The translations under genes and the position numbers were made by a program. The notes under the pieces are model-generated. The model saw nothing but the letters and a program-made list of their open reading frames with translations, had not been told where the DNA came from and searched no databases. From Candidatus Nitrosopumilus sp. (GTDB lineage: Archaea > Thermoproteota > Nitrososphaeria > Nitrososphaerales > Nitrosopumilaceae): 64,000 nucleotides of DNA. The DNA lies in NCBI GenBank assembly GCA_014384555.1, contig JACNFR010000050.1, forward strand, positions 1 through 64,000, read 5' to 3'. Positions 30,125-31,644 of this stretch are shown in pieces. Within the stretch, counting starts at the first letter, position 1; each line of letters opens with the position of its first letter.

Positions 30125-30574
30125 ATGAGTGCATCTAGAATGCGAGATAATGTTGAAAGATGGGTTATCCATGAAGGACTTTCTTTTGATGAAGTAAAAA
30201 ACCCTGAAAATAATTTTCAAATTCTCGTAAAACATGCAGGGCAATCTGGAATACCAGTAGATGTGTTTGAACCAAAAGGACAACCAGGAATTTTAGTTAT
30301 TGGAGCAAAAGTAGTAATGAAAAATAATCAAATTGCAAGATATTTAGGATTTAGTGCAGAAGAAAAAGAAAAATTTGAAAAAAAAGTTACTGATTTTTGT
30401 AATTCAATACAGGTAATTAGTAAAATAATCACCGAAGATGGAAAGCAAAAAGTTGGAGTTTATGTGGTTTTAGATGACAAAGAGAACATCAATCAACAGA
30501 CAATGCTTGAAGCAGTAGATAGTGTATCAGAAAAATACGATAAAACTGCCAGATTTTTGCTAAAAACATTTTAA
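30125..30574 (+). CDS. DUF2299 family protein
   Basis: VERWVIHEGLSFDEVKNPENNFQILV. Confidence 0.7.
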   Translation: MSASRMRDNVERWVIHEGLSFDEVKNPENNFQILVKHAGQSGIPVDVFEPKGQPGILVIGAKVVMKNNQIARYLGFSAEEKEKFEKKVTDFCNSIQVISKIITEDGKQKVGVYVVLDDKENINQQTMLEAVDSVSEKYDKTARFLLKTF

Positions 30575-30634
30575 AAAATAGACGATTTATCAGTCCTTCG
30601 TGGCTCTTTTATTATAAATTAACCAAGATATAAC

Positions 30635-30784
30635 ATGAAAACAACAATTATTACAAAAAAATACACAACAACATGCAAACCAAAAACAAGTTTCATTGAA
30701 AGCCAAATTTTAAGATTCAAGGCTTCAAAAAACAAGGTTTTTGTTTTGACAGTTATTGCAACTTTGATGGTGTTTGTAAAATGA
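30635..30784 (+). CDS. Micro-ORF 1 of cluster (49 aa, C-terminal hydrophobic helix)
   Basis: MKTTIITKKYTTTCKPKTSFIESQILRFKASKNKVFVLTVIATLMVFVK*; TATA-like TTATAAATT upstream. Confidence 0.45.
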   Translation: MKTTIITKKYTTTCKPKTSFIESQILRFKASKNKVFVLTVIATLMVFVK

Positions 30785-30903
30785 ATGCCTTCAACATCAT
30801 GCTCAGACATGCTACAAAAAAATACGAGATCAATGTAAGCATCAAAGTCAATAAACTACAACTTGAGAACCAGGCTACAAAATGGGAGGCAATTAAGAAT
30901 TGA
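30781..30903 (+). CDS. Micro-ORF 2 of cluster (40 aa)
   Basis: ATGA overlap with ORF 1; MNAFNIMLRHATKKYEINVSIKVNKLQLENQATKWEAIKN*. Confidence 0.45.
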   Translation: MNAFNIMLRHATKKYEINVSIKVNKLQLENQATKWEAIKN

Positions 30904-30971
30904 ACATCCTCAAAATGATAGACGAGATTCTTGAAACATATGAAGTCAAAGAGGTCCGAACAAATGAATAA
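30900..30971 (+). CDS. Micro-ORF 3 of cluster (23 aa, TTG start)
   Basis: TTGA overlap with ORF 2; MNILKMIDEILETYEVKEVRTNE*. Confidence 0.35.
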   Translation: MNILKMIDEILETYEVKEVRTNE

Positions 30972-31044
30972 TATCTTCAAAATGATTGGACTTGCCTTGG
31001 CAGTGCACTATATTGTAAAAACAGTCCACAAAGAATTGAAGTGA
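30964..31044 (+). CDS. Micro-ORF 4 of cluster (26 aa)
   Basis: ATGAATAA overlap with ORF 3; MNNIFKMIGLALAVHYIVKTVHKELK*. Confidence 0.4.
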   Translation: MNNIFKMIGLALAVHYIVKTVHKELK

Positions 31045-31057
31045 CAAATGAATAAAA

Positions 31058-31082
31058 CCCCTAAAAGGAGAAATTTTAGGGG
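31058..31082 (+). terminator. Perfect 9-bp hairpin CCCCTAAAA-GGAGAAA-TTTTAGGGG after the micro-ORF cluster
   Basis: Read directly; begins 14 bp after the ORF 4 stop. Confidence 0.5.
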
Positions 31083-31226: not shown

Positions 31227-31436
31227 GTGTGTTCAAATGGACAAGCAACCAATGAAATCAAAAGTTATTCAAAATTAAACATGATAAACTCGGTTCTACA
31301 GATTAATGAGACTGCAATAAACGAGTCATTTGAATCCACAAATAACATATTTGATCAGTTCAGATTGTTTACATCCAGTGTATTTTCACAAATTTTTGAA
31401 GGAATTACCATGATGTTAGAAAACTTTCTAAAATAA
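31227..31436 (+). CDS. Hypothetical amphipathic protein
   Basis: 69 aa ORF; may start at the internal Met (MINSVLQINETAINESF...). Confidence 0.45.
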   Translation: MCSNGQATNEIKSYSKLNMINSVLQINETAINESFESTNNIFDQFRLFTSSVFSQIFEGITMMLENFLK

Positions 31437-31454: not shown

Positions 31455-31554
31455 GCCTAGGCGTTAAACCCCCCCTGAAAAATACATGTTTTAGGCATAA
31501 TGTGAAAATTTCAAAATCAGGCGTTTTGTGGGGGGGGTTAACACTTGTGCCTAG
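31455..31554. other. Imperfect inverted repeat with poly-C/poly-G arms
   Basis: CTAGGCGTTAAACCCCCCC ... GGGGGGGGTTAACACTTGTGCCTAG. Confidence 0.6.
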
Positions 31555-31644
31555 ATACAATATGCAACCCCAATTCCACCAAGCTCTCCTAGCTAAAGGT
31601 GTATGATCTTTTAGTGTCGTGCGTAAAAGCTAAACCCCTCTAAA

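Follow-up and report, generated by a model that had tools for sequence, protein, structure and literature searches.

A candidate leaderless, serially coupled operon of four microproteins in Nitrosopumilus

Introduction

Short overlaps between genes support termination-reinitiation in archaea as well as in bacteria (PMC10666635; review PMC12548453), and gene pairs with such overlaps are enriched among the subunits of heteromeric complexes (PMC10666635). The coupled overlapping gene pairs described by Huber et al. (2019, 2023), archaeal pairs included, lie on the same strand and overlap by 4 nt of the NTGA type. The chain of ORFs considered here, found in a 64-kb stretch of DNA from Candidatus Nitrosopumilus sp. 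(the window), shares these traits. However, it is made of four consecutive ORFs of 23-49 aa without a family in the libraries, and what is available for it is a sequence signature.

Two other kinds of described systems come close. In leaderless archaeal small-protein genes, as in the chain, the ATG lies near the expected transcription start and is not preceded by a clear Shine-Dalgarno (SD) sequence. In contrast to these genes, the chain is polycistronic, its first ORF is followed by SD-led overlapping ORFs, and its long upstream box is common to other loci. Toxin-antitoxin modules and other exchangeable small cassettes also have small adjacent ORFs, opposite charges and horizontal exchange in common with the chain, for which, however, no homology to known systems was found.

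Proteins of 23-49 aa fall under the usual gene-calling limits, and the chain represents a conserved, exchangeable set of them. With its fixed overlaps, it offers a clear test case for serial reinitiation in archaea. Moreover, the common box and the exchange of the cassette point to a small, directly testable regulon in abundant marine ammonia oxidizers.

Four overlapping ORFs and their conservation

The first-pass annotation of the window had described four tiny ORFs linked by start/stop overlaps, and reading the window again gave the same ORFs, lengths and overlaps (Table 1). In a single sequence, such a chain is weak evidence and unremarkable on its own: of 3000 simulated regions of 1.4 kb, 39 (~1%) contained a chain of four, and other chains of 4-5 ORFs occur elsewhere in the window. 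The significance of the present one thus comes from its conservation among relatives and not from its structure in one sequence.

Table 1. Features of the chain and its upstream region in the window
Feature	Length	Position	Strand	Remarks
DUF2299 gene		30125-30574	+	invariant 5' neighbour of the cassette site
Conserved promoter box and BRE/TATA-like stretch		30584-30612	+	22 nt separate it from the ORF1 ATG; the window's box is diverged, with 3 mismatches to GATTTATCAGTTCTACGCGG
ORF1	49 aa	30635-30784	+	hydrophobic helix at the C-terminus (residues 34-48), N-terminus basic; clear SD absent; dN/dS 0.33
ORF2	40 aa	30781-30903	+	polar; ATGA overlap with ORF1; dN/dS 0.14
ORF3	23 aa	30900-30971	+	acidic; start TTG; TTGA overlap with ORF2; GGAG(G) upstream; dN/dS 0.20
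ORF4	26 aa	30964-31044	+	hydrophobic helix; most conserved of the four; ATGAATAA overlap with ORF3; dN/dS 0.10

A DNA search matched almost the whole chain in 17 other genomes of the genus at 71-86% identity. With an ORF1 profile, the chain was found in 25 of the 96 genus genomes, the source genome included, with one strong match in each; Candidatus Nitrosopumilus salaria BD31 (locus L155) is among its bearers. Twenty-three copies are intact and two, in G046 and in G009, are degraded, the latter coming from an assembly with 9% contamination. The cassette is dispensable, since these two copies have decayed. Among 251 genomes of the order, no convincing chain was found outside the genus. Weak outside matches came up in G303 and G304 and, in another family, in G268 and G288; the two that were read are G304, with a KASKNK-like stretch and the rest of the chain absent, and G303, where reading gave nothing convincing.

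Short stop/start overlaps between same-strand genes, as in a coupled operon, are retained at all three junctions across the 23 intact copies, one of which has a 2-nt gap. In G007, G060 and G123, a 1-nt insertion shifts the ORF3 stop, and the shifted stop overlaps the ORF4 start all the same. Likewise, ORF3 and ORF4 begin with TTG, GTG or ATG depending on the copy, with unchanged overlaps. The own frames of the four ORFs are open in all 23 intact copies, most other frames having stops in most of them. Frames and overlaps, whose comparison among relatives had been proposed as a check, are therefore both kept.

The same holds for selection at the protein level: pairwise NG86 estimates on aligned orthologous loci gave dN/dS of 0.10-0.33 (Table 1), the pairs being non-independent and those with dS of at least 3 or not computable being excluded. 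These values and the open frames indicate purifying selection in the proposed frames, as in protein-coding genes, and codon-position bias was counted as further coding support for the four ORFs. It had been considered that antisense ORFs might be the translated ones; they are interrupted by stops in 17 and 21 of the 23 copies. Judged from this conservation, the four micro-ORFs are real genes.

Among the peptides, a hydrophobic helix had been noticed in the first and the last, and it is visible in their hydropathy, with 15-residue peaks of ~2.5 in ORF1 and ~2.1 in ORF4. ORF2 and ORF3 are polar, ORF3 being acidic and the adjacent ORF4 basic and hydrophobic. AF2 modelling, applied to ORF1 and ORF2 since ORF3 and ORF4 fall below the length minimum of the tool, predicted helices in both (pLDDT 67 and 75, a low to moderate confidence). 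For the peptides tested, no notable match was obtained in Pfam, NCBIfam, PHROGs, PADLOC or the PDB.

Exchange of cargo at the DUF2299 site

In every copy whose neighbourhood was checked, the chain lies directly 3' of the DUF2299 gene, a family on which no literature was found. Across the genus, this site holds the chain (cargo A), an unrelated 50-aa gene (cargo B), or neither, and at no locus do A and B occur together. The genome that we take to be that of N. maritimus SCM1 (G102) bears B. On a tree built from DUF2299 and up to 900 nt upstream of it, at least six changes between A and B are required. In the tree of the chain, G007, G009, G060 and G123 are grouped at 100/100, a grouping that the flanks reject (AU p = 1e-6, for a group picked after both trees were seen). 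In G060 and G123, the upstream region and DUF2299 have 82-86% identity to B-type genomes and the cargo has 82-86% identity to G007 and G009, the identity switching at the promoter. Because the trees conflict and the identity switches at the promoter, the data indicate exchange between species, in which the chain and another small gene replace each other at this one site. The same pattern may also have been produced by recombination that moved the flanks instead of the cargo.

A small ORF of 51 aa (MINSVLQINETAINESF..., window positions 31281-31436) is conserved 3' of both cargo types and has its own conserved stretch upstream.

Promoter and translation signals

Upstream of ORF1, relatives have the box GATTTATCAGTTCTACGCGG; at most loci read, the TATA-like stretch that follows it ends 22-23 nt from the ATG. 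An own promoter had been proposed for the chain on account of a TATA-like element placed 20-28 bp before the first ATG. A promoter of its own is supported, but the position has to be corrected: the element then named, TTATAAATT, occupies positions 30612-30620, 15-23 bp before the ATG, whereas the TATA position common to relatives is 30606-30612, 23-29 bp 5' of the ORF1 ATG. The notion of an undescribed micro-operon is likewise supported.

A 20-mer of the box has a match with at most 3 mismatches in 56 of the 96 genus genomes, and an extended pattern gave 36 matches in 18 genomes, versus 1 for the reversed control; these counts are descriptive and not an independent test, because the pattern was written after such sites had been seen. 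In the genome of the window, whose copy has diverged, the extended pattern had no match at the threshold used.

In leaderless genes, the TATA element lies ~26 bp upstream of the transcription start. The ORF1 ATG is at such a distance from the conserved box and TATA, and comparison with the archaeal anti-SD sequence yields no clear SD before ORF1 in the 23 copies, at most short matches. This geometry and the absent SD fit a leaderless transcript. As for the following ORFs, a weak GGTG precedes ORF2 in 16 of the 23 copies, a GGAG- or GAGG-type match precedes ORF3 in all of them (GGAG-type in nearly all), and a GAGG-type match precedes ORF4 in most.

The box recurs before other leaderless-looking genes, mostly small. 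In many relatives (L136, L129, L126 and others), the same promoter box is followed by a gene for a 55-aa zinc-ribbon-like protein. Small proteins beside a TFB-like gene and, at a spacing of 30 nt, a cysteine-rich protein of 71 aa also come after it. Since secreted-looking proteins of ~195 and ~222 aa follow it too, the box is not restricted to tiny proteins. At L099, L095, L084 and L107, a short ORF of the kind MKTKTTQSREVTLTVDKVW... stands under the box, with an in-frame stop in the L095 copy; it is possibly related to cargo B.

A model for the chain and its alternatives

Translational coupling had been suggested from the three successive overlaps, and the sequence signature, that is short overlaps and conserved junctions, agrees with it. 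We infer that the chain is transcribed and translated with coupling, and that its products are located at the membrane and form a complex. In this model, the conserved upstream box and TATA would start a leaderless mRNA at or beside the ORF1 ATG. A ribosome ending one ORF would begin again at the start codon that overlaps its stop, with the SD-like motifs as an aid before ORF2-4, and termination-reinitiation would give linked output of the four peptides. ORF1 and ORF4 would probably reside in or on the membrane, with ORF2 and ORF3 as their probable partners. Because overlaps of this size are known from termination-reinitiation and from subunits of complexes, we favour a serially coupled, membrane-associated complex: the chain is probably a four-gene, leaderless microprotein operon, carried as an optional cassette, whose products would form a small complex at the membrane. 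More tentatively, and with some doubt on our part, one may imagine that Nitrosopumilus has an undescribed regulon in which a single long promoter box would precede leaderless genes, most of them small, and within which an exchangeable site would carry either the four-microprotein membrane complex or the unrelated single microprotein.

Two cargos that exclude each other at one site, with repeated A/B switches on the flank tree, and the acidic ORF3 beside the basic, hydrophobic ORF4 would also suit an exchangeable conflict cassette. In such a case, the hydrophobic peptide or peptides would be toxic or antimicrobial, the acidic ORF3 or the polar ORF2 would neutralise them, and the 50-aa gene would be a rival allele. 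This seems unlikely to us, since PADLOC gave no match for ORF1, ORF2, ORF4 and cargo B, the four that were scanned, and ORF4 is the most conserved of the peptides rather than a fast-evolving one. No homology to a toxin-antitoxin family appeared in the family libraries either.

It might also be that only some of the ORFs, for example ORF1 and ORF4, matter as proteins and that the others mainly place ribosomes. ORF2 and ORF3 are indeed short and polar, and the overlaps could be regulatory; their dN/dS values of 0.14 and 0.20 nevertheless argue against this idea, which we hold to be rather improbable. As to decayed DNA, the first-pass annotation had envisaged a mobile-element remnant, and chance ORFs could be put forward as well, given the frequency of four-ORF chains in simulated regions and the patchy distribution. 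Purifying selection, conserved junctions and open own frames make a remnant or a chance assembly very improbable, and searching phage and plasmid collections with ORF1 gave no match. The cassette nevertheless appears to move between species.

Downstream sequences

The 9-bp hairpin downstream of the chain, which had been taken for its terminator, is present at 31058-31082. This role is not supported: conservation stops at the ORF4 stop, the T-run that would suit a terminator lies on the minus strand, and only G012, G036 and G105 have a comparable hairpin among relatives.

Farther downstream (window positions 31455-31640), there is a non-coding element of ~205 nt with GCCTAGGCGTTAAACCCCCC-type repeats, present in 75 of the 96 genus genomes and in single copy in nearly all. 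As a structured RNA it found no support from covariation, and Rfam gave no match above the gathering score; it is possibly a DNA element to which a protein binds. The genes that flank it are mostly convergent on it, and the cumulative GC skew of the window peaks in its vicinity.
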